Assembly: GCA_017503725.1 (NCBI GenBank)
Contig: JAFVSL010000008.1
Location: forward strand, 1-64,000
Direction of reading: 5' to 3'
Length of the DNA stretch: 64,000 nucleotides
From: Alphaproteobacteria bacterium
GTDB taxonomy: Bacteria > Pseudomonadota > Alphaproteobacteria > Rs-D84
This document shows, piece by piece, positions 1 to 25,352 of this stretch (position 1 is the stretch's first letter; each line of letters opens with the position of its first letter). The position numbers were made by a program, and so were the translations under genes. The notes under the pieces are model-generated. The model was not told where the DNA came from. It saw nothing but the letters and a program-made list of their open reading frames with translations, and made no database searches.

Positions 1-19
1 AACAGCTCCCCGACTTATT

Positions 20-150
20 AAGTCAGGGATAAATCACGACACAAAACCACAGGAATGACATCGGATGACGATGCCGTCAGTAATTTTGCACCGAATACGC
101 TGGGCTTGAGATAGCCCCGAACCCATATCCCTATGGATTCATTTCATAGT
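20..150 (+). repeat. Dispersed degenerate repeat, copy 1
   Basis: No gene is visible in the first 370 bases. The stretch ending near 150 (core CCCGAACCCATATCCCTATGG, about 113-135, preceded by TTTTGCACCGA) matches the reverse complement of 58320-58400, and its core matches 9163-9183. The three copies differ by substitutions and small deletions, so this looks like an old repeat family rather than a functional gene. What the element does is unknown. Confidence 0.5.
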
Positions 151-373
151 CTATCACTAAAAATCAAAAATCTCAATTAGATATTAAAATGATGCATTTT
201 GTATTTGGTATGATTAAGTATGGGTAAAAACTTTACATAGAAAAATGGTTAAAAAATGGTGGAAATGTGGGGTGTGCAGCGGTTTTTATGTTTAATGATT
301 TTGTATTTAATCTGATTAAGACTTTTGGATTGTTTTACATATTCTAGACATCAACTATTACAAGACAAAAGAA

Positions 374-470
374 AGTGGCGGATTTCTGCGTAGTTCAAAT
401 GGAAAAATACTGTGTGGGCTGAAATATCATAATCCTTTGGTCGGGGGTCCGAATCCCTCCGCTGCTACCA
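374..470 (+). pseudogene. tRNA-Met(CAU)-like remnant (intact 3' half, aberrant 5' half)
   Basis: From about 427 onward the sequence reads like the 3' half of an elongator tRNA-Met: CATAATCC, a five-pair T stem, and a 3' acceptor strand CGCTGCT followed by ACCA. AGTGGCG at 374-380 can pair with that acceptor strand using wobbles. However, about 20 extra bases lie between the D arm and the anticodon, no anticodon stem forms, and the T loop is TCCGAAT instead of TTCGAAT. I read it as a decayed or recombined tRNA, possibly an old attachment site. A functional unusual tRNA cannot be fully excluded. Confidence 0.45.
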
Positions 471-479
471 GAATAAACA

Positions 480-504
480 AACGACCCGATGGGTCGTTTT
501 TTTA
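480..504 (+). terminator. Intrinsic terminator after the tRNA remnant
   Basis: A perfect stem ACGACCC/GGGTCGT with a three-base loop is followed by a T run. It directly follows the tRNA-like remnant. Confidence 0.7.
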
Positions 505-663
505 TTCTGTGCGTCGGGGTGGTGAAGGACACCCAGATGGGGGTCCGACCCGCAGGCAAAAGGCATACGGGCGTATGCCGATCCCCCGAAGTTTTAACGA
601 AGGGGGATTTGCCCAGGGGAATGAAGCGCAGCGGAATCAATCCCTCCGCTGTAATACAAATAC

Positions 664-693
664 AATTAAAAATCACCGCCCGAATAGGCGGTG
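664..693 (-). terminator. Terminator of the CDGC-protein gene cluster
   Basis: Read on the minus strand, CACCGCC/GGCGGTG forms a hairpin followed by ATTTTTAATT. It lies a few bases beyond the stop codon of the last minus-strand CDGC gene (ends at 698). Confidence 0.6.
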
Positions 694-697
694 GGGA

Positions 698-1384
698 TTA
701 TCGTGTGTTTTGCCTATCCTTGTTAAGGTATTCATGCATCTTGGTGGCGCATTTGCCACGGCAATCGTTTGCAAAAATATGATTTATTGTTGGATATTTA
801 TCATCACCACAACTGGGATGCGGATGCACTTGACAGCCCAGATAGCACCGCAGTTCGCACCCGTCACAATGTACAGGTGTCTGTAATGGATTTTGTTCCT
901 GATAATGTTTCAAGCCGAGATTAAAGCATTGGACCGCTTGGGGGAATTTTTGAGATTGGGTTTCTCGCATTTTCATAGACTCACCAGACAGGGTCCGCAT
1001 TTTATAATGCCCGACCAACGATTGCACCGCATGACGGAATACCATATCTTGTTCTGGGGAAAAACGGATAATGGGAATTCCCCTATATGGTTGCATTTCA
1101 TATGGATTCCAAATATATACTGTGCCGTTTTGATAGCAATAATAATTTCGTTCAAATTTATAGAACCTGTAATGATAGGGCATCCCTGGGGCAAACGAGG
1201 TGCCTTGTCCGAATCTGATCAATGCGTCTGGGGTCAAAGAAGCACGCCATCCATATACATTTATATCACGTGCAGTACGATACAGTTCATGTAAAAAATA
1301 GTCCGCATTCGTTTCACGCATTGTGGTGGGTGATAATTTATCAATGTCTTGTGGTGACATACTTTCCCAAGGATGCTGTGTCAT
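698..1384 (-). CDS. Hypothetical protein with C-terminal CDGC cysteine domain
   Basis: I do not recognise this 228-residue protein as a named family. Residues 1-165 form an aromatic-rich domain with no signal peptide or membrane segment. The last 60 residues carry C173-D-G-C176-x3-C180, then C184, C192, C208 and C212, the same C-x2-C-x3-C signature as the three smaller proteins upstream. The spacing suggests metal binding or disulfides, which is inference. It is the promoter-distal member of a minus-strand cluster, 11 bp after the 94-residue paralogue, and is followed by a terminator. It looks like a fusion of a separate N-terminal domain to the shared cysteine module. Confidence 0.7.
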   Translation of the reverse strand: MTQHPWESMSPQDIDKLSPTTMRETNADYFLHELYRTARDINVYGWRASLTPDALIRFGQGTSFAPGMPYHYRFYKFERNYYCYQNGTVYIWNPYEMQPYRGIPIIRFSPEQDMVFRHAVQSLVGHYKMRTLSGESMKMRETQSQKFPQAVQCFNLGLKHYQEQNPLQTPVHCDGCELRCYLGCQVHPHPSCGDDKYPTINHIFANDCRGKCATKMHEYLNKDRQNTR

Positions 1385-1395
1385 TTTATATCCTG

Positions 1396-1680
1396 TTATC
1401 GTTGTTTATAGTTATCGCAAAGACGAGCAATTTTGCGCGCCACGTCCAGCATGTAAATCCTTTGGTCAAAGGGGTGTTCAATACCGTTGATTGACAACCA
1501 TGTTTTGCTTTTGACAGTTGTTTGGGTGTTGTCATTTTCATCTTGGAATGAAGTGATCACGGCTCTGCCAATTACTGGAAAATAATACTCTTCTTCCTTA
1601 AGTGTGAAATCTAGATAGCAATGTTTTTTACAACCATCGCAATGTAAAATATTTGTTTTCTTTTCTTGTGTAAATGACAT
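1396..1680 (-). CDS. Small CDGC-motif protein (94 aa)
   Basis: Unrecognised small, charged, apparently cytoplasmic protein. It has C14-D-G-C17-x3-C21 near the N-terminus and a C-terminal helix with ARKIARLC and a following Tyr, matching the AR-x-C-x2-Y ending of the 108- and 82-residue paralogues. The middle of the protein has diverged. Spacing to the neighbouring genes is 11 bp on each side, so it is probably co-transcribed with them. Conservation of the cysteines at both ends suggests they act together, for example as a zinc site, but this is inference only. Confidence 0.7.
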   Translation of the reverse strand: MSFTQEKKTNILHCDGCKKHCYLDFTLKEEEYYFPVIGRAVITSFQDENDNTQTTVKSKTWLSINGIEHPFDQRIYMLDVARKIARLCDNYKQR

Positions 1681-1691
1681 TTTGCGTTCCT

Positions 1692-2018
1692 TTATTTTGT
1701 CTTGTGATAATGCGGACAGTGTCTTGCGGCAAGGCGTGCCTGATGTGTTGCCCGCTCTAATGCAGCCTCTAATGCGCCTTGGGGCAGTGGTGTAAAAACC
1801 ATACTATCATCACTATCCCAACTATAATTTTTAAGTTGTATTCCTGCATCACATTCTTTGCCGAATTCATCAATGTATTTATTTATAGCCATATCGCCAA
1901 TCATGGGATGTATGTAATAAGTAGCATAAATTGAACCACTTGTGTGCACGTTTGCCCATAGTTCGCAATTCTTTTCACATCCATCACAATAATACCTGGC
2001 TTCTTGTTCAGATGACAT
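1692..2018 (-). CDS. Small CDGC-motif protein (108 aa)
   Basis: Paralogue of the 82-residue protein at 2209-2457. The first 15 residues (MSSEQEARYYCDGCE) are identical, while the middles differ. It carries C11, C14 and C18, and C101 in the C-terminal ARHCPHY segment. There is no signal peptide or membrane helix. Upstream DNA contains an AAAGG ribosome site and a promoter-like TTGCAA-16-TATAAA that resembles the upstream region of the 82-residue gene, so the duplicated unit seems to include its promoter. Function unknown. Confidence 0.75.
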   Translation of the reverse strand: MSSEQEARYYCDGCEKNCELWANVHTSGSIYATYYIHPMIGDMAINKYIDEFGKECDAGIQLKNYSWDSDDSMVFTPLPQGALEAALERATHQARLAARHCPHYHKTK

Positions 2019-2139
2019 TTTAAGTACCTTTTTAATATTTTACACAAGATTTATAGCATAAAATCGCGGGTTTGCAAGCGTAACGCAGCGAAACCGTTGC
2101 GATTTGGAAAGGGGCCCATCGCGGCACATTTATGTGACG

Positions 2140-2205
2140 GATGGGAATATACAATCCCTCGGGCAGCTACCAAGATTCAAACCGCCAGATTAGGCGGTAT
2201 TTTTA
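2140..2205 (+). other. Second tRNA 3'-end-like remnant plus terminator
   Basis: The bases around 2148-2173 read ..CAATCCCTCGGGCAGCTACCA.., resembling a degenerate T arm and CCA end. They are followed by AACCGCC/GGCGGT and ATTTTTA (2180-2205), an intrinsic terminator on the plus strand. The order, CCA-like end then a hairpin with a T run, is the same as at 427-504. No complete tRNA can be folded here. Confidence 0.4.
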
Positions 2206-2208
2206 TAG

Positions 2209-2457
2209 TTATTTCTGTTTTGTATATGATGGGCAATGTTTTCTTGCTAATTCATGTGCTTGGGCAATCAACATAGGTATATAAATTTGACGTGTAAAAT
2301 CACTGTCAATTTTTATCTCCATTGTTGCCAACAATGGGTTTAACTTTGCATATGTTCCTGCTGGTCTGCCACAGTTATGATAACGTGTAATTATCTTTAT
2401 CTCGCATTTACTTTCACATCCATCACAATAATACCTGGCTTCTTGTTCAGATGACAT
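2209..2457 (-). CDS. Small CDGC-motif protein (82 aa)
   Basis: Shortest member of the family, with C11, C14, C18 and a C-terminal ARKHCPSY segment (C75). Its first 15 residues equal those of the 108-residue paralogue, and the start is supported by AAGGGA 8 bases upstream. It has its own promoter (TTGACA-16-TATGCT on the minus strand at 2486-2513) and is separated from the other three genes by 190 bp that hold a tRNA-like remnant and a terminator. No function can be assigned. Short length, tandem copies and fast-changing centres are typical of accessory gene families. Confidence 0.7.
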   Translation of the reverse strand: MSSEQEARYYCDGCESKCEIKIITRYHNCGRPAGTYAKLNPLLATMEIKIDSDFTRQIYIPMLIAQAHELARKHCPSYTKQK

Positions 2458-2485
2458 TTGTGTTCCCTTTTATTTTCACACAAGA

Positions 2486-2513
2486 AGCATATAATAAAAT
2501 ATTTTTTTGTCAA
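2486..2513 (-). promoter_or_regulatory. Sigma70-type promoter for the 82-aa CDGC gene
   Basis: On the minus strand, TTGACA (2508-2513) and TATGCT (2486-2491) are separated by 16 bp. The downstream leader shares a TCTTGTGT-like stretch with the region upstream of the 108-residue paralogue. Confidence 0.6.
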
Positions 2514-2612
2514 ACATTATATCATAAAAACTTACCCTTCACACTCTTGCACGGTTGACTTTTTTTTAGATATTCTCTAATATGTACACGACATATGCGA
2601 AAGGGGATTTTT

Positions 2613-3110
2613 ATGCGTAAATTGTTTGCGACTTTACTTGCATTTTTACCGTTTGGGGCATTGGCAAATCCGGCGTGTCCCGTATGCACAATTGCGGTTG
2701 GTGCGGGATTGGATATTGCACGTCGCCTGGGGGTTCCGGACAGTATTGTTGGCCTGTGGGCGGGGGCGCTGTTGACGCTGTTGGGGTATTGGATGCTGAA
2801 ATGGATGGATAAAAAGAATTGGCATTTCCGTGGTCGTGACACGATTGTAATCTTGTTATCTGTGGCAATGATTGGTTTTGTGTATATGGGCGCGGTGGAA
2901 TATGCACCAACATCGATTTGCGGAATGTTTACAATGGATCCGGTTTTGTTTGGTACAATCTGTGGTGCATTGATATTTATCGGTACCGGAAAATTGTATC
3001 AATGGATGAAGAATAAAAACGGTGGTCACGCACACTTTCCGTTTGAAAAGGTGGTGTTGCCGATTGTCGCACTGGCCATTGCAAGTTGGTTGATGATGAT
3101 TTGTTTCTAA
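2613..3110 (+). CDS. CPVC-motif multi-pass membrane protein
   Basis: This 165-residue protein has an N-terminal signal peptide ending near ALA-N, then a C-P-V-C pair just after the predicted cleavage site, and three to four further hydrophobic helices. An ATG at 2595 is possible, but the AAAGGGG at 2598-2604 fits the start at 2613. From memory, similar CPVC membrane proteins occur in Patescibacteria (CPR) genomes, with unknown function. The CxxC at the membrane face suggests a redox or metal role, which is inference. It is followed 15 bp later by the helical 185-residue protein, so the two are probably one operon. Confidence 0.7.
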   Translation: MRKLFATLLAFLPFGALANPACPVCTIAVGAGLDIARRLGVPDSIVGLWAGALLTLLGYWMLKWMDKKNWHFRGRDTIVILLSVAMIGFVYMGAVEYAPTSICGMFTMDPVLFGTICGALIFIGTGKLYQWMKNKNGGHAHFPFEKVVLPIVALAIASWLMMICF

Positions 3111-3125
3111 GTTAAGGGGAAAATA

Positions 3126-3683
3126 ATGAAAAAGATAGAATCTGTTCAAGAATTTGTTGAAAAATTGGATGCTGCGAAAAAAGTTAATCCAAAAGATTTA
3201 TCGTCTGACCAAGATTTGACTATTGGCATTATGAACCTGATTTCAATCGAAGAACATTTGATGTTTTCAGGCGCAAAAACCGGTAAACACGAATACTATG
3301 ATTTAATTAACCAGGTGCGTGAAATGCGTAAAAACGCAATGCTGAAAATTATTCCCGCGTACGAGGGCGAGGTATGGTGCATTTCAAAGCATTTATTAGC
3401 CGCCGCAATGCGTGTGTTCGAGGTTGGAACCAAGGCACTGGCCGCGGGTGACAAACAAACCGCATATGATTTATTTGATCAGTCTTATGGACTGTACTGT
3501 ATGTTCTGGGGGCTGAATATGGGTATGCTTAGTGGCGAGGCACCAAAATCCAAACCAGTCGCCACGCCAAAGGCAAAAGCAAAATCAGAACCAGCAACCG
3601 TCGAAGCGGTCGCACCAAAATCCGGCGGAATGGGTAAATTAAAGGCCTGGGTTAAAAATGCGGTTAATTGCTGTATAGAATAA
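3126..3683 (+). CDS. Conserved helical protein of unknown function
   Basis: A 185-residue cytoplasmic protein, mostly alpha-helical up to residue 140. It contains ISIEEHL and GEVWCISKHLLAA segments, then a low-complexity Lys/Ala/Pro tail with a short amphipathic end. Start ATG follows AAGGGGAAA. It is co-transcribed with the CPVC membrane protein and ends at a strong terminator. I recall similar proteins in Patescibacteria, where function is also unknown, and have not verified this by search. The tail could tether it to the membrane or to its partner, which is speculation. Confidence 0.65.
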   Translation: MKKIESVQEFVEKLDAAKKVNPKDLSSDQDLTIGIMNLISIEEHLMFSGAKTGKHEYYDLINQVREMRKNAMLKIIPAYEGEVWCISKHLLAAAMRVFEVGTKALAAGDKQTAYDLFDQSYGLYCMFWGLNMGMLSGEAPKSKPVATPKAKAKSEPATVEAVAPKSGGMGKLKAWVKNAVNCCIE

Positions 3684-3685
3684 AA

Positions 3686-3751
3686 AGATCCCCAAATGTC
3701 CACCCACGCAAACTAATGTTTGCGCGGGGGCCAGATGGGGGATTTTTTTTG
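3686..3751 (+). terminator. Long intrinsic terminator
   Basis: Outer arms ATCCCC and GGGGGAT enclose an inner CGCAAAC/GTTTGCG hairpin, followed by a run of T. It ends the 2613-3683 operon. Confidence 0.75.
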
Positions 3752-3820
3752 ATAGGGAATTCATACCTGTGGGAATAAGGGTAAAAATAAATATAATTTA
3801 TCCCCAGGGAGAATTTTTAC

Positions 3821-4171
3821 ATGCACGATTATATTAACAATCTGTCTTATTCGTTGCGATTGACACAATATCAAACGCAAGTGTTATCTAAAAATATTAA
3901 TGAGTATAATATGGGACGCGTAATAAAAAGGGGTGGCGTGATTTATGTGCCATATATGTCCCGCGGATTTATCGATAGAATTATTAGATTATTTTACGGT
4001 GTGCGCGCAGACCTAATTGGGCAAAACAAAATCCTGGTAAAAAACAAGCGCAATATCAAATTTTGTAAAAATGGATTTTACTGTATTAAAATTGGACGCT
4101 TTGTATATTATGCAGATGCAATGGGGCGCGGCATTTCACGTGATGCGTTTTTGCGCGGAATTGCAGACTAG
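3821..4171 (+). CDS. Hypothetical protein (116 aa)
   Basis: A basic protein with no recognised domain, signal peptide or membrane segment. It is rich in Arg, Lys, Ile and Tyr and ends in a short helical stretch (GRGISRDAFLRGIAD). The start follows AGGGAGA, and a TATAAT at 3793-3798 could be its -10 box. Its stop overlaps the stop of the convergent AsmA-like gene on a shared CTAG (4168-4171). The ribosome site makes it a believable gene, but nothing can be said about its role. Confidence 0.55.
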   Translation: MHDYINNLSYSLRLTQYQTQVLSKNINEYNMGRVIKRGGVIYVPYMSRGFIDRIIRLFYGVRADLIGQNKILVKNKRNIKFCKNGFYCIKIGRFVYYADAMGRGISRDAFLRGIAD

Positions 4172-6642
4172 AATTTATTGTGCGTCTTGATAAATTCGCG
4201 CAGATAGTCACCATCAAAATTTATCAAAATTTCAGACAATGAATAACGACGTGTGCCATCGGGCATAATGTCTAGTTGGATTGTGGTTGCCGATGGGGAT
4301 GTGCCACGCATTGTTAAATCCAATGTCGTGTACATTTCGCCATTTTCTAGTTCGATTATTCCAATACCGTCAACGTGTCGCATTGATATAGACAATGGTT
4401 TAGTGGTGATAAAGTTTCCGTTTTCATATTCGCCAACAATATGCATATTTTTTAACTTGGTTTCGCCACCGTTTAATGCACGCGACAGGGCAAATTCCAT
4501 ATTTAATTTGTTTAGGTTCTTAGCAGCCGCGTAAAAATCATCCAATCCCAACCCGACAATCGTTCCGCCATCGAACGACAAATCCATTTCCCCCGCCATA
4601 TTGTACCAGATGTCGTGTGCAATTTGACCAGATGTTTTCATATGAATTTCGGCCGTTATCATTGTATCGCGCAGGTTTAATGGCATATTTTTACTAAGCA
4701 ATTCGCCATTGATTACAAATTTATTCATTTGCGCAAATATGTCGTAATTTGTTTTATCTTTTTCAATGGTTACAAGTACGTTGCCACGCGCATTATCTGT
4801 GATTGAAAATACCATTGCATTATTTCTTAGCGAATATACAAAGTTTGCATATTCAATATTGTCGTAAATAATTTTATCCGCAGACAAGGATATATTTGCA
4901 TTAACATCAAATGGAATTAAAATCGGTGTGTTTGTTAAAAATTCTAATTCGTCATAGCGCGCAATAAAATCATCTGATATAAATTTATCCAGATTTAATA
5001 AATCTGTGTGTATGGTTATATTGTTTCCATTGACAGAACCTGAAAATATTGTTCCTGATAAATCCAGGCTAAAATCTGAAATTTTTCCATCATCATATAT
5101 GCCCGATATTGTGTAAGGCATATCGTTAACCGCGCGTAAGTCCAGATGTGGCACCCACGTATGTGCCGATGTACCGGTCAGCATAAATTTTTTACCATCC
5201 ATCTGAATTTGCCATTTTTTGTTATGCGGGGTAAAATTCATAACATTTCCGAACCACGTAAAATCACCAACATCACGATTCATAAAATCTGGTAAAAATG
5301 GCAGGGTTACATTTGCCCATTGCAAGGTCTTGTTTTTTGCAAATTTAAATTCGGGTTCTATTTTTTGGGGTGTTATATGATATGTGCCGGCAACATCTGT
5401 AAAATCAAAGTTGATTTTTCCGTGTGTCCCCAGTCTTTTTATACGTTCACTGAATATGCCAGATTTTGGCATTTTTTTATCCGATTTAATTGTCATATCA
5501 AACGAATTGTTATTTACAGAAACGTCACCCGTTATGTCACCGTATGAATATGGGGCGCACTTCCAATTATTTGGTGTACCGGAAAACAGGCACGTTGAAT
5601 CCATTCCATCAAATGGCATTGTAACCAAGACATCGTGTGCCCCAGATGAATCAATATGGCCACCGGTTATCGCAATATCGTCCGCGACAATGTTTGTTAT
5701 TTGGATTGAATTATTTGCGGCAATTATGTTTATGCGAATATGCTTGAACGTATGATTCATAAATTTTAAGTCACCATAAAAATCCAGGTCGTATTGCGTA
5801 TTTGTCAGCGCATCCCCAAAATCCAGAATATTTGTAAAATCATAGTTAATATTATCTGATTTTAATTGAATGAATTTTATCCCGTTTGGCTTTGTTTCGA
5901 TGTTACCTGTTAAATTGCCCGCACGAATATTGGTATACTTAAATCCATTACCACCATCCCATTCAAAGTTTAATGTAACATCGGCATCAATTGGTAATTT
6001 GGGTTGTTCGATGTTCAGCCAACTGTTTAAATCATCTGTTCTAAAAGACATATGACCGCGCATTGTGCCATTGTCAAAGAATTGCCCAACAATATCCAAG
6101 TCGTTATTTTTATTTGTTATGTGAAATGTGTTACCGGAAAATTCAACGTCATATTTATGATTTTTTGTTCGGATAATTCCGTTGAATTTATTGTCCTGCA
6201 TTTTTGCACTTATTATATGAAAATCACGACCCATAAAGTGTATGTCTGAATCAAAAATGTTTACGGTGTGATTAAAGTTCGCCGGGGCCAATTGTGGGAT
6301 ATTTATATCCGCATCGTATACGGTAACAGACGGTTTAATCTCAGGATTGTTCAGGTTGAACAAACTGCTGAATGGGATTGATATCATAACGGATCCGATT
6401 TGTGCCGTGGGCACGCGTACATCGTGGGCAACAATTTTTGCACCGGACAACAAACTAAAATGTATATCACCGTTTAGTTTTGCATCGACATTCGTCTGGG
6501 TTGCGATTGCCTGTTCTATCATAGGTTTGAATTTATTCAATGTTATCATTGATGGCGCAATGATAAAGGTCAGTACAACAACGGCGATTATTGATACAAT
6601 CGACCAAATAATTCTGCGTTTATATCTGGGTTTTAATGCCAT
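4168..6642 (-). CDS. AsmA-family envelope protein
   Basis: An 824-residue protein with one N-terminal membrane anchor (about residues 10-30), followed by LNKFKPMIEQAIATQTNVDAKL, the typical start of AsmA-type proteins, and a long beta-rich periplasmic region. Members of this family are thought to bridge the inner and outer membrane and help phospholipid transport or outer-membrane assembly. The C-terminal LSEILINFDGDYL is helical or amphipathic. The gene is monocistronic and convergent with the hypothetical at 3821. Overall similarity is clear at the N-terminus and weaker beyond, so the precise subfamily is uncertain. Confidence 0.75.
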   Translation of the reverse strand: MALKPRYKRRIIWSIVSIIAVVVLTFIIAPSMITLNKFKPMIEQAIATQTNVDAKLNGDIHFSLLSGAKIVAHDVRVPTAQIGSVMISIPFSSLFNLNNPEIKPSVTVYDADINIPQLAPANFNHTVNIFDSDIHFMGRDFHIISAKMQDNKFNGIIRTKNHKYDVEFSGNTFHITNKNNDLDIVGQFFDNGTMRGHMSFRTDDLNSWLNIEQPKLPIDADVTLNFEWDGGNGFKYTNIRAGNLTGNIETKPNGIKFIQLKSDNINYDFTNILDFGDALTNTQYDLDFYGDLKFMNHTFKHIRINIIAANNSIQITNIVADDIAITGGHIDSSGAHDVLVTMPFDGMDSTCLFSGTPNNWKCAPYSYGDITGDVSVNNNSFDMTIKSDKKMPKSGIFSERIKRLGTHGKINFDFTDVAGTYHITPQKIEPEFKFAKNKTLQWANVTLPFLPDFMNRDVGDFTWFGNVMNFTPHNKKWQIQMDGKKFMLTGTSAHTWVPHLDLRAVNDMPYTISGIYDDGKISDFSLDLSGTIFSGSVNGNNITIHTDLLNLDKFISDDFIARYDELEFLTNTPILIPFDVNANISLSADKIIYDNIEYANFVYSLRNNAMVFSITDNARGNVLVTIEKDKTNYDIFAQMNKFVINGELLSKNMPLNLRDTMITAEIHMKTSGQIAHDIWYNMAGEMDLSFDGGTIVGLGLDDFYAAAKNLNKLNMEFALSRALNGGETKLKNMHIVGEYENGNFITTKPLSISMRHVDGIGIIELENGEMYTTLDLTMRGTSPSATTIQLDIMPDGTRRYSLSEILINFDGDYLREFIKTHNKF

Positions 6643-6653
6643 TCTCTCGTCCC

Positions 6654-6681
6654 TTGTATTTTAATTATAATGAATTATACT
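6654..6681 (+). promoter_or_regulatory. Promoter of uvrB, probably giving a leaderless mRNA
   Basis: TTGTAT (6654-6659) and TATACT (6676-6681) are 16 bp apart. The GTG start of uvrB lies 7 bases after the -10 box, so transcription would begin at or next to the start codon. No ribosome-binding site is present. Confidence 0.55.
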
Positions 6682-6688
6682 AAGTGTT

Positions 6689-8680
6689 GTGAACAAAAAA
6701 ATATTTAATCTTGAAAGTAATTACAAACCAATGGGCGATCAACCGACCGCCATATCTGAATTGGTATCTGGCGTCAATGATGGTCGCCGGTCCCAGGTAT
6801 TATTGGGTGTAACCGGTTCGGGCAAGACGTTCACAATGGCAAACATTATTGCACAATTAGGCCGTCCCGCATTGATTATGGCGCCGAACAAGATTCTGGC
6901 GGCGCAATTATATACGGAAATGCGGGCGTTCTTTCCAAATAATCACGTGGAATATTTTGTGTCGTATTATGATTATTATCAGCCCGAGGCATATATGCCC
7001 ACAACCGATACCTATATCGACAAAGACGCATCGATAAATGAACAACTGGACCGTATGCGACACAGTGCAACCCGCGCAATGCTAGAAGAACGCGATGTTA
7101 TCGTTGTATCCAGTGTGTCATCTATCTATGGTATGGGGTCGCCGGAACAGTATGCGGGAATGCGATTGGTCTTGCGTGTGGGGGATAATATTTCGATGCG
7201 AGATACTATGCGTGCATTGGTTGATATTCAATATAAACGCAATGATATGTCGTTTGAACGTGGCGAATTTCGTGTGCGTGGCGATACACTGGATTTGTTC
7301 CCATCCCACGCCCAAGACAGGGCCTGGAAAATATCTTTCTTTGGTGATGAAATCGAAGAAATTTGGGAATTTGATACATTAACCGGGGCGAAATTACAAA
7401 GACTGGACCGGATTGCAATTTATCCAAATACGCACTATGCAACACCAATGCCCAGTGTTTTACAAGCAATTGGCGAAATAAAAAAAGATTTAAAAGAACG
7501 CCTGGAATACTTTCATGAAAATATGAAGTACATAGAGGAACAACGTCTGCGGGAACGTGTGAATTTTGATATAGAAATGATGGAAAATACCGGCACGTGT
7601 CGCGGGGTTGAAAATTATTCACGCTATTTATCCGGGCGGGCGCCGGGGATGCCACCACCGACGTTGTTTGAATATTTGCCACGTGACGCGGTCTTGTTTA
7701 TTGATGAAAGTCACGTAACCGTTCCGCAAATTGGCGCTATGAGCCGTGGCGACCGCGCACGCAAGGAAACACTGTCACAATATGGTTTCAGGTTGCCGGC
7801 CTGTATTGATAATCGTCCGCTAACGTTTGATGAATGGGATGCGTTGCGACCGCAAACAATCTTTGTTTCGGCAACGCCGGGTACGTGGGAATTGGAACAA
7901 TCGGGCGGCATTGTTTCCGAACAGGTTATAAGACCAACGGGACTGTTGGATCCGGTGTGTGACGTGCGCCCAACCGCGCACCAGGTGGATGATTTATTAG
8001 ACCAGATTAAAAAGACGTCTGGGCGCGTGTTGGTGACAACACTTACCAAAAAAATGGCGGAACAGTTAACAGATTATCTGAATGAAAATGGGGTTCGGGC
8101 CAAATATCTGCACAGCGATATTGAAACACTGGAACGTATTGAATTATTGCGTGATTTGCGTTTGGGAAAATTTGATGTGTTGGTTGGAATTAACCTGTTG
8201 CGCGAGGGCTTAGATGTCCCCGAATGTGAATTGGTTGCAATTATGGATGCGGATAAAGAAGGGTTCTTGCGCTCAACTCGTTCATTGATTCAAACGATTG
8301 GTCGTGCGGCCCGTAATGCAAATGGTTTGGTTGTTTTGTATGCTGATAAAATTACGGATTCTATGCGTGCGGCATTGGATGAAACGGCACGACGCCGTGA
8401 AAAGCAAATGGCGTATAACACCGAACACGGAATTGTGCCACAAACGGTAACCAAGGCGGTCTTTGCCCAGGTTGGTGATAAACAGGAAAAGACTGACAAG
8501 GCACGGCGATTTGTGTATGATAAATCGGGTGGGATTATGGACGCGGAATCGTTGCGCAAGGAAATTGCAAAACTGACCAAGAAAATGCGCAGTGCGGCAG
8601 AAGATTTGGAATTTGAATTGGCGGCCGAAATCCGTGATCAGATTCATAAACTCGAAGATGATTTATTGTTGGTGGAGTAA
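6689..8680 (+). CDS. uvrB: Excinuclease ABC subunit B
   Basis: UvrB is the damage-verifying helicase of nucleotide excision repair; it works with UvrA and UvrC on bulky lesions in cytoplasmic DNA. The 663-residue length is normal. Visible motifs are Walker A GVTGSGKT (40-47), the beta-hairpin [10 protein letters not shown] (93-102) that clamps DNA, a DESH box, the helicase VI motif QTIGRAARN, and a C-terminal UVR helix pair. The start is GTG, with no ribosome site but a -10 box 7 bases upstream. tsaE follows 3 bp after the stop, so the two are co-transcribed. Confidence 0.97.
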
Positions 8681-8683
8681 GGT

Positions 8684-9082
8684 ATGAAAGAATATATTTT
8701 AAACAATGTTGATGAAATGCGTTGTTGGGCGCGTGATTTTGCAAAGACATTATCTGCGCCGTGTGTTGTTGCGTTGCACGGTGACCTGGGGATGGGAAAA
8801 TCGGAAATTGCACGTGCGATAATTCAAACCTTGCGTGGGGCGGATACCGTTGTCCCCAGTCCGACATTTACAATTGTGCAAAATTATGATGGAATTTCGC
8901 ACTTTGATTTATATCGTGTCGAAGATGCGTCTGAATTGGTTGAAATCGGATTATTGCACGCGATTGAAAATGACATTACGTTAATTGAATGGCCACAAAT
9001 TGCAACGCATATGTTGCCGAAAAATACAATCAATGTTTATATTACACAAAATGGTGATGGGCGAAAAATTGTCACTGAATAA
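8684..9082 (+). CDS. tsaE: tRNA threonylcarbamoyladenosine biosynthesis ATPase TsaE
   Basis: TsaE is the P-loop ATPase of the TsaB-TsaD-TsaE complex that makes t6A37 in tRNAs reading ANN codons. The 132-residue protein has a P loop GDLGMGKSE (residues about 33-41; Met-Lys-Ser where many have Ala-Lys-Thr), PSPTF, HFDLYR and EWPQ, all in the usual order. It follows uvrB by 3 bp. No tsaB or tsaD lies in this window. Confidence 0.93.
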   Translation: MKEYILNNVDEMRCWARDFAKTLSAPCVVALHGDLGMGKSEIARAIIQTLRGADTVVPSPTFTIVQNYDGISHFDLYRVEDASELVEIGLLHAIENDITLIEWPQIATHMLPKNTINVYITQNGDGRKIVTE

Positions 9083-22840: not shown

Positions 22841-25352
22841 AAATATCTTTTGTGCGACAAATCCGGCAAAAATGATTGATGCATTATTTCAGGTTATGGA
22901 TGCATCGGGGGTGGGGTTGCGCGATATGCTGATATTTTTGCCCAGTCGTCGCGCCGTTCGTACGGTAGAGATGGCATTGGTAAAACGCGCGGGGACGGCG
23001 GTTTTGTTGCCGCATTTGGTCGCCCTGGGCGAAGGGGTGGATGAAGCCGAATATGCGGATGAATCAGATACCCCAGACGTTATTTCAAATATGGAACGTG
23101 TTGTTGTGGCGGCGCATTTGTTGACGGCAGATACCAAGATACACAACCTGGCGACGGCATTGCCGATTGCGCGCGATTTGGTGCGTATGTGTGACTATCT
23201 TGAAAACGAAGGGATAGATGTCGCAGATATAGATTGGGCATCTTTGGTAGATGAAAAATATGCCACGCATTTTATGGACAAGGCACAAATGCTGAATATT
23301 ATGTCGCGGGTGATGACTGAATTTGGGGCGGGGCGTGTGACACAGACACAACAAAGAAACAGTGATATTCGTGCCTGGATAAATGTTTTAGATAAATATA
23401 AATTGGTTATTGTGTGTGGTTCCACCGCCAGTGTCCCACCAACCGCAGATTTAATGGCGGCGGTGGCCCGGTTGCCATATGGGCGAATTATATTGTCTGG
23501 GAAAATTGATGGGCGGGTTGATGATTTTGCGCTGGATACAAATCCATATAATTCAGAATATAAATTTTTAACGCGTATTGGTCGTGATGTGTCTGATGTT
23601 ATCCCAATTGATGTGGGGGCATCGGTGATTGATTTTATGAACTATGCGTTTGGTAATAATCCGGCACAGTATGGGGAAAATAAAAACCTGGGGCATTGTC
23701 ATTTAATAAAATGCCCCAGCGAGGCGGTCGAGGCCGCGTCTGTCGCAGAAATTGCCGCGCGGGCATTGGCACAGGATAAAAGCGTCTTGGTTATAACGCC
23801 GGATGCCGCCGGAAATCAGCGTATTGCGGCGGCGCTGCGCGCACGTGGAATTGTGGGGGATTTTTCAGGTGGTGTGCCCGGCACAATGACGCCTGCGGGG
23901 CGCGCAATATTGAATTTATTAGATGGGTGGATTGAAAGTTCATCAGACGCGTTTGATAAATTTTACGCAAAAAATAGTTATGATTTATTCAATACGATTG
24001 CCGAAATTATTCAAAACTATGATTTAGAATTTGCACCACAATTTGTCGCAGATGATGCGGTCGATATCTGGGAAAAAATACGCGAATTATCAAATGCGAT
24101 AAATGTGGTCGGGTTGCGTTTAAATGTGTCTGATGCGCGTACGTTTATTGCAGATGCGATTTCATCTGTGTCGGTGCGTGGCGCGCCCGATGCCAATACG
24201 CGTGTGGTCGTTTTGGGTACAATTGAATCACGTATGCAGACCGCAGATGTTGTAATTTTAACCGGCCTGAACGAGGGGATGTTTCCCGCGCGCGGGTATG
24301 AAAACGCCTGGTTGCCACGAAGGGTCGCAGAACAGATTGGTTTGCCGTCACCAAATCGTAAGGTTTCTTTGCAATCATTAGATTTTATGAATTTGTCGTG
24401 TGGCGGGGATGTGTATTGGTTGCGTTCGACCGTGTCGGGTGGTGTTCAAACGACCGAGTCCAGATTTATTTCCCGCATTATGGCGCGCGGCGGTGTGTTT
24501 GATGACGGGGCGGGGGTCGACATTCTGGGGGCGGTGGCGGCGCGTGACAGGCCGGCGCCAAACGGATTGGATTATTCGCCACCACAACTGGATACACCGG
24601 ATTGGAGTGATGTTTATGTGACGGAACTGGAAACGTTGATTCATAATCCATATGCGTTCTATGTTAAGCATATCTTGCGATTAAAGGTTTTGGATGATTG
24701 GTGGGTTACGGCAGATGCAAAAAAGTTTGGAAATCTGGTGCACGATGTTATTGAACACGCAACCGATTTAAATCCAGATGTCTTGGTCGCGCAAATGGAT
24801 GCGCGTGCACGTGAAATAATTGGTGAAAAAAGCGTTCTGTATCATTTTTGGCATAAAAGGTTTTTGGAAATTGCGCCGGTTGTATCGGATGTTTTGGGTG
24901 CTTTGCCCGTGCGATATCACGAAATAGGGGGGCGGATAAAGTTTCCGATTGGTGCCTCATTTCGTAATGTGCGCGCACGTGCAGACTTGGTTTGGGACGG
25001 CGGGGTAATGGATTTTAAAACGGGTACCGCCCCGAACAAGGGACAGCTGACCAAGGGGAATATGCCACAATTACCATTAGAGGCATTGATGCTGAAATCC
25101 GGTGGATTTGATTTACCGCCCGATGTGCGTGTGTCGTCCACACCAATAATGATGTTTTTACAGATGAAAAATGGTGCGGTTGAACCGATTGCATATGACA
25201 GTGACACAACGCAGACAATGATTGATGCCGCCGCTGGCAAGGTATCGGAATTATTTAATATCTATACCGTTGGGAATGCGCCGTATGAATATCACGAAAC
25301 CGGCGAAGAAAAGTACAAGGTTTATGATGACCTGGCCCGGGTCAAGGACTAG
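22827..25352 (+). CDS. addB: Double-strand break repair protein AddB
   Basis: AddB is the inactivated-helicase plus nuclease subunit of AddAB, which processes DNA ends for RecA. Residues 1-150 contain the LPSRRAVRTVE and HLVALGE signatures of alphaproteobacterial AddB. A helicase-like middle holds LTGLNEGMFPARGYENAWLPRRV, and a C-terminal PD-(D/E)xK nuclease has GNLVHDVIEH and VMDFKTG. A TTG start (22827) fits the N-terminal strand NIFCATNPA; an ATG at 22872 would cut it. At 841 residues it is shorter than many AddB proteins. addA is not adjacent. Confidence 0.88.
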   Translation: MGLNKNIFCATNPAKMIDALFQVMDASGVGLRDMLIFLPSRRAVRTVEMALVKRAGTAVLLPHLVALGEGVDEAEYADESDTPDVISNMERVVVAAHLLTADTKIHNLATALPIARDLVRMCDYLENEGIDVADIDWASLVDEKYATHFMDKAQMLNIMSRVMTEFGAGRVTQTQQRNSDIRAWINVLDKYKLVIVCGSTASVPPTADLMAAVARLPYGRIILSGKIDGRVDDFALDTNPYNSEYKFLTRIGRDVSDVIPIDVGASVIDFMNYAFGNNPAQYGENKNLGHCHLIKCPSEAVEAASVAEIAARALAQDKSVLVITPDAAGNQRIAAALRARGIVGDFSGGVPGTMTPAGRAILNLLDGWIESSSDAFDKFYAKNSYDLFNTIAEIIQNYDLEFAPQFVADDAVDIWEKIRELSNAINVVGLRLNVSDARTFIADAISSVSVRGAPDANTRVVVLGTIESRMQTADVVILTGLNEGMFPARGYENAWLPRRVAEQIGLPSPNRKVSLQSLDFMNLSCGGDVYWLRSTVSGGVQTTESRFISRIMARGGVFDDGAGVDILGAVAARDRPAPNGLDYSPPQLDTPDWSDVYVTELETLIHNPYAFYVKHILRLKVLDDWWVTADAKKFGNLVHDVIEHATDLNPDVLVAQMDARAREIIGEKSVLYHFWHKRFLEIAPVVSDVLGALPVRYHEIGGRIKFPIGASFRNVRARADLVWDGGVMDFKTGTAPNKGQLTKGNMPQLPLEALMLKSGGFDLPPDVRVSSTPIMMFLQMKNGAVEPIAYDSDTTQTMIDAAAGKVSELFNIYTVGNAPYEYHETGEEKYKVYDDLARVKD

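Follow-up and report, generated by a model that had tools for sequence, protein, structure and literature searches.

Why would a bacterium with a genome of 1.0 Mb carry side by side four small genes that share one cysteine triplet, and what could their products do? The genes lie near the start of the window, by which we mean the whole stretch of 64,000 nucleotides analysed; this stretch opens a 243-kb contig (C7) of a genome that is 98.8% complete. The features of the locus are as follows.

426 to 470, plus strand: exact 45-nt copy of the 3' part of tRNA-Met (positions 31-75) without the 5' part, an att-like remnant adjoining the array.
674 to 693, minus strand: hairpin resembling an intrinsic terminator, judged from sequence, 3' of ORF1.
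698 to 1384, minus strand: ORF1, 228 aa, with the family motif from residue 173 after an N-terminal domain of about 172 residues; the usual C-terminal tail is absent.
1385 to 1395, minus strand: seam between ORF2 and ORF1, 11 nt, CAGGATATAAA, after the KQR-stop.
1396 to 1680, minus strand: ORF2, 94 aa, a canonical member (98 bits, E 3e-28 against profile A1, which includes ORF2).
1681 to 1691, minus strand: seam between ORF3 and ORF2, 11 nt, AGGAACGCAAA, after the KTK-stop.
1692 to 2018, minus strand: ORF3, a member of 108 aa, with a 95% identical allele in genome G034.
2050 to 2077, minus strand: promoter-like leader of the ORF3-ORF1 unit (TTGCAA, 16 nt, TATAAA), of a type common to other arrays.
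2209 to 2457, minus strand: ORF4, a member of 82 aa, whose N-terminal DNA through CDGC is that of ORF3 and whose centre is different.
2486 to 2513, minus strand: promoter-like site of ORF4 (TTGACA, 16 nt, TATGCT).

The four ORFs are real genes of one family. As the earlier note had described from the sequence, all four carry C-x2-C-x3-C, beginning at residues 173, 14, 11 and 11 of ORF1 to ORF4, and one copy, ORF1, is fused to a long domain ahead of the motif. The two genes said to have the same first 15 residues are ORF3 and ORF4, which are identical at the DNA level through CDGC (42/42 nt) and diverge afterwards. The AR-x-C-x2-Y ending ascribed to three genes is exact in two (ARLCDNY and ARHCPHY), the third reading ARKHCPSY, that is, AR-x2-C. 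Since C-x-G-C-x3-C was found in 5 of the 266 window ORFs of at least 60 aa, against 0.07 on average and never more than 2 when the residues of the ORFs were shuffled, its recurrence is not due to chance. The fifth of these is a mechanically called 73-aa ORF on the plus strand at 24400-24621; a fifth member of the family itself lies elsewhere in the same genome (G000:C3, L080:9261-9512).

Homologues are present in other genomes of the genus, which is very likely Candidatus Enterousia of the order Rs-D84. A single-member query gave matches in 26 of 96 genus genomes at E up to 1, and a profile of 31 members gave matches in 40 of 156 at E up to 0.01, with a maximum of 19 matches per genome. The profile had no match in 27 other genomes of the taxonomic family and none in 45 other genomes of the order (0/45), and in a sample of the class profile A3 matched 2 of 385 genomes (G000 and G074), both of this genus. 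Within the genomes searched, the gene family is therefore found only in this genus. The relatives with named records are Alphaproteobacteria metagenome assemblies from the hindgut of roe deer, water deer, sheep, goat, yak and water buffalo, together with one Candidatus Enterousia excrementavium; the genomes are drafts and, as far as their records show, metagenome assemblies. Genomes of Ca. Enterousia are about 1 Mb or smaller, and a symbiotic or parasitic lifestyle has been inferred for them (PMC12306168).

An HMM search of 80 loci (79 fetched stretches and the first 20 kb of the window) returned 155 ORFs with 167 domains from 38 genomes. C-x2-C-x3-C was found in 160 of the 167 domains, with G at the third place in 159, and the 160 motif-bearing domains had a P-x-[ILV] centre in 154 cases and a C-x2-[YHF] tail in 145, although some of this conservation is by construction because the domains were picked by profile. 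The hallmarks of a member are C-x-G-C-x3-C, a P-T-I centre and a tail resembling LCDHYKTR. The seven domains that lack C-x2-C-x3-C were excluded from the motif and mosaic counts. Fusion forms comprise the ORF1 type, with relatives in L005, L021, L064 and L190, as well as tandem domains and other extensions.

The family genes are clearly under coding constraint. Across 31 disjoint allele pairs dN/dS was 0.37 overall, a substitution pattern of the protein-coding type and not a random-looking one, and by part it was lowest in the last 12 residues (0.12), higher in the motif stretch (0.18) and highest in the centre (0.60). Among 138 unique full domains (the 160 minus short or duplicate ones), there were 16 pairs alike in the N-terminal part and unlike in the C-terminal part and 19 of the reverse kind, where alike means 80% or more and unlike under 45%. 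Three chimeras hold in DNA comparison, of which L083:272-577 is the clearest: its N-terminal part matches L076 at 82/87 positions and L081 at 67/87, while its C-terminal part matches L081 at 211/219 and L076 at 151/215. Between species, array alleles differed by a dS of 0.03-0.47 compared with 0.63-2.83 for the core U32 peptidase gene, the array being closer in 9 of 9 species pairs; this yardstick is a single core gene, applied to the species pairs with U32 genes at hand, and because the family is multi-copy and the closest alleles were paired, the dS of the allele pairs is lowered to some degree. As judged from these comparisons, alleles are exchanged between species. The suggestion that repeated copies with variable centres form an accessory system was thus supported, in that the family is patchy in the genus, multi-copy, horizontally exchanged and mosaic. 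It could be argued that this is a neutral or selfish family of recombining repeats that benefits neither host nor phage, as the mosaicism, the gene-end remnants in L198 and L203 and the presence of the family in only about a quarter of the genus genomes would allow. However, the purifying selection (0.37 overall and 0.12 in the last 12 residues, with 0.60 in the centre) speaks against such a family, and we consider this explanation improbable.

No known family had been recognised from the sequence alone, and this remained so: Pfam, NCBIfam, PHROGs and PADLOC hold no model for the family and gave scattered weak matches only. We call the family unnamed with respect to these four libraries, not to the literature. 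PADLOC gave nothing of note, no defence or anti-defence model matching the family, and with the queries used relatives were absent from viral contigs (query A2), phages (one match, E 4) and plasmids. One candidate was lambda Ral (PF11058), which is likewise small with a C-x-G-C stretch, and if members were Ral-like they would modulate type I restriction as Ral does. The best matches to the Pfam model (E 0.0037, 1 of 31 members) and to the PHROG model (E 0.0015, 2 of 52) might be taken in its favour, but the cysteines are spaced as C-x5-C-x2-C-x5-C in Ral and as C-x2-C-x3-C with one more near the C-terminus in the family, and profile-profile comparison returned probabilities of 3% and 11% over 16 and 9 aligned columns. 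Since the single-member matches are weak (E 0.0015-0.0037) and the profile-profile comparison gives no support, membership in the Ral family was rejected, and a Ral-like antirestriction role appears quite unlikely. A Panacea-like C-terminal half, suspected by eye in L205, likewise received no support from Pfam.

The AlphaFold2 model of ORF2, made with 52 sequences, has four strands and two helices (pLDDT 84.5, pTM 0.75). Neither PDB nor BFVD gave a confident match to this model, Foldseek finding none with E of 0.001 or lower and the best VIA Z being 3.1; a PDB sequence search with the profile gave a best E of 0.23. A structure model of ORF1 made without an alignment was unusable (pLDDT 34). 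The conserved cysteines would imply a metal site. The roles named in the earlier note, antitoxin, metal sensor or surface protein, gained no direct support, the library matches being scattered and weak and a metal site being at most implied by the cysteines; no signal peptide was noted by eye in the four ORFs.

The genome context in relatives repeats that of the window, with family genes in tight same-strand runs (20 fetched stretches and the window). Mixed into these arrays are five other gene clusters, described by eye as cysteine-rich 76-residue proteins, 139-residue proteins, lipoprotein-like proteins, proteins with a probable membrane span and 51-residue proteins; Pfam was silent or weak on the first four. 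The unit consists of a promoter-like leader, packed genes with near-constant seams and a terminator. The seams (n=53 array junctions) are mostly 10-14 nt and read ...ACACGATAA-AGGAAA..AA-ATG. A leader of the form TTGMAH-N11-15-TGCTAW stands upstream of 27 of 97 units, including the ORF3-ORF1 unit of the window; the units were called mechanically; one is over-extended, one is doubled (the window operon counted twice) and many are single distant relatives with other leaders. A K[TQ]R end is found in 53 of 69 family genes and in 18 of 24 co-array genes, compared with 4 of 202 background ORFs, although the 24 co-array genes represent five independent cases and not 24 because they fall into five clusters. 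Three of the four background cases lie within the operon of L061 and L063 described below. Of 79 array genes, 63 use CGA for the terminal Arg, a codon that makes up 8.5% of the Arg codons in the background and 8.7% of those in the interior of these same genes. Unrelated array genes, as read from their codons, share a coding end at the DNA level, and one co-array gene (L078:1285-1620) clearly took over the family tail.

This shared end bears on the proposal that the proteins are secreted effectors or surface-related proteins of a host-dependent bacterium, with the conserved start or the KTR end serving as a sorting signal. The small genomes and the inferred symbiotic or parasitic lifestyle (PMC12306168) would suit effectors, as would the presence of K[TQ]R on unrelated array proteins. 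The end is, however, fixed at the level of the codon (CGA in 63/79) and continues into the non-coding seam, which would be superfluous for a peptide signal alone. The co-array protein that looks lipoprotein-like by eye carries the same end and family members occur within a phage tail operon, and for these reasons we regard the effector explanation as unlikely. Toxin-antitoxin or antitoxin-like modules are also conceivable for small paralogous genes, particularly as a Fic-domain gene lies in or beside some arrays (L061, L063, L064). Nevertheless, the arrays are runs of one family with no consistent two-gene pairing, and none of ten proteins scanned, mostly fusion forms, had a Pfam antitoxin domain with E of 0.01 or lower; this explanation therefore seems very unlikely.

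Other genes were observed near the arrays. L061:1223-4773 and L063:2585-6123 contain an operon with genes that by eye are nicotinamidase-like, radical-SAM-like (PF04055, E 1.4e-5, below the cut-off), NadE-like and NUDIX-like; some of its genes end in K[TQ][RK] with AAGGA seams, and arrays are present in the same stretch. Cro/C1-type HTH genes stand beside arrays at L061:12981-13241 and as cluster 2 (8 genes at 6 loci; PF13443, E 0.001, below the cut-off), and such a gene could possibly be an array regulator.

With regard to chromosomal position, an intact tRNA lies within 1 kb of 23 of the 81 family clusters, and tRNA density is 0.100 per kb near clusters compared with 0.048 farther off (p 0.012), a modest excess. 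Partial tRNA-Met copies like that at 426-470 of the window were also found in L226 and L228; Rfam returned nothing credible over window positions 1-9000, and the copy at 426-470 was recognised by comparison. The 5' half of tRNA-Asn (1-38) recurs, exactly or nearly so, in L061, L063, L069, L076, L190 and L212, mostly near arrays. At the U32 peptidase gene, 30 loci were returned, 15 of which have tRNA-Thr at a distance of 100-131 nt from the start of the gene, and in five genomes (G004, G016, G026, G033 and G110) an array occupies the interval between the gene and the tRNA. The other loci hold unrelated inserts or are cut, and a target-site duplication could not be defined at this site. In L278 (G048) the tRNA-Thr beside the U32 peptidase gene is broken after its 5' half. 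A further stretch of 5.5 kb, L064:8361-13945, has an intact tRNA-Met at one end and, at the other, a 22-nt copy of positions 31-52 of that tRNA. The stretch holds an array and a Fic gene; an integrase search of it gave no match, and it looks like a non-autonomous island. Overall, of 139 family ORFs, 1 has an integrase-domain gene within 5 kb and 4 have one within 10 kb, counts that are limited by the draft contigs. In the window itself, the non-coding positions 1-293 have repeats of 83-96% identity in L062, L069, L070, L191, L198 and L215, each of which carries family genes, and this repeat might be the end of an element. Two imperfect direct repeats (TTTTGTATTTNNTNTGATTAAG-like) at 196-218 and 298-320, to the left of the tRNA-Met remnant, could possibly be arm-type sites of a recombinase.

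One array was found in a prophage. Going by gene D, 11 of 151 genus genomes have a P2-like tail operon with the genes for tape measure, U, X and D. All but X were named by PHROGs, and X is presumed from its position and LysM-like look. In ten loci (L250-L259) X directly abuts D, whereas in G114 (L065) three family genes stand between them. The flanks in G114 are identical to those in G092 (L252) at 788/806 and 365/379 positions. The insert is about 1.1 kb and, as read from the DNA, comprises a leader (TTGAAA..TGCTAA), the three genes and a terminator hairpin with a T-run; it is bounded on both sides by the 7-nt AATGAAA, which can be either a target duplication or microhomology. This is the one prophage insertion seen, the other arrays being chromosomal as far as seen.

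Phage morons have their own promoter and terminator. The G114 insert is moron-like in its anatomy when judged by sequence, having extra genes that lie between two conserved phage genes and are absent from close relatives, with a leader and terminator as promoter and terminator of their own. Unlike a moron, however, the family was seen mainly in arrays on the chromosome, where seams are shared and some members are mosaic. In integrons one promoter precedes exchangeable gene cassettes that lack promoters of their own and share a boundary, and the arrays likewise combine a promoter with exchangeable genes that have a common boundary. Unlike in integrons, an integrase gene accompanies few of them (1/139 ORFs within 5 kb) and the boundary takes in coding sequence. 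The variable hotspots of P2-like phages and P4 satellites (PMC9122126) are comparable as a small, high-turnover locus amid conserved P2-like phage genes, but here the X-D site is in the tail operon and occupied in one genome, and no known defence model matches. The term moron, or prophage accessory locus, is that of PMC7067206.

We lean, with some reserve, towards the explanation that the arrays are self-contained mobile units of a genus-restricted family that most likely acts in phage-bacterium conflict. It builds on the family and its distribution, the anatomy of the units, the species-to-species exchange, the mosaic genes and the clean prophage insertion, all of which were observed. Units of leader, packed genes and terminator would travel whole, like phage morons or accessory cassettes. 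Their landing places would be tRNA-linked sites of the chromosome and, in a single genome, a prophage tail operon. The likeness in DNA of the gene ends, the seams and the CDGC stretch would allow neighbouring or incoming genes to recombine with array genes, and new gene combinations would arise in this way. As for the proteins, each probably folds into a small alpha/beta domain; the four conserved cysteines would bind one metal ion, and the variable centre would contact different partners. The finding of one unit inside a prophage points to a role in the contest between bacteria and phages, and a phage-linked, exchanged and mosaic family with a faster-evolving centre would, on its anatomy, fit proteins that meet changing partners. 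The likeliest use would be in phage-bacterium conflict, such as superinfection exclusion or counter-defence, and our best guess is that the family proteins are small metal-binding adaptors in phage conflict.

A further possibility, which we put forward only tentatively, is that these arrays constitute an integrase-free cassette system, in which seam-sharing genes are recombined into arrays that hop and serve phage conflict in a genome-reduced bacterium. Unrelated genes would gain the common coding end and seam (K-T/Q-R-stop-AGGAAA-N-ATG), recombination at the seams would shuffle them into promoter-driven arrays, and the arrays would move among prophages and tRNA-linked hotspots, so that the bacterium would have a rapidly changing set of proteins for phage conflict.

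Genome-reduced bacteria are expected to shed accessory genes, yet this genus retains and exchanges arrays of one unnamed family. The prophage insertion ties the family to phages, and the seams offer a concrete, testable route by which cassettes may spread without a dedicated integrase nearby. Since both empty and filled sites exist, the mechanism would be testable directly from more assemblies.
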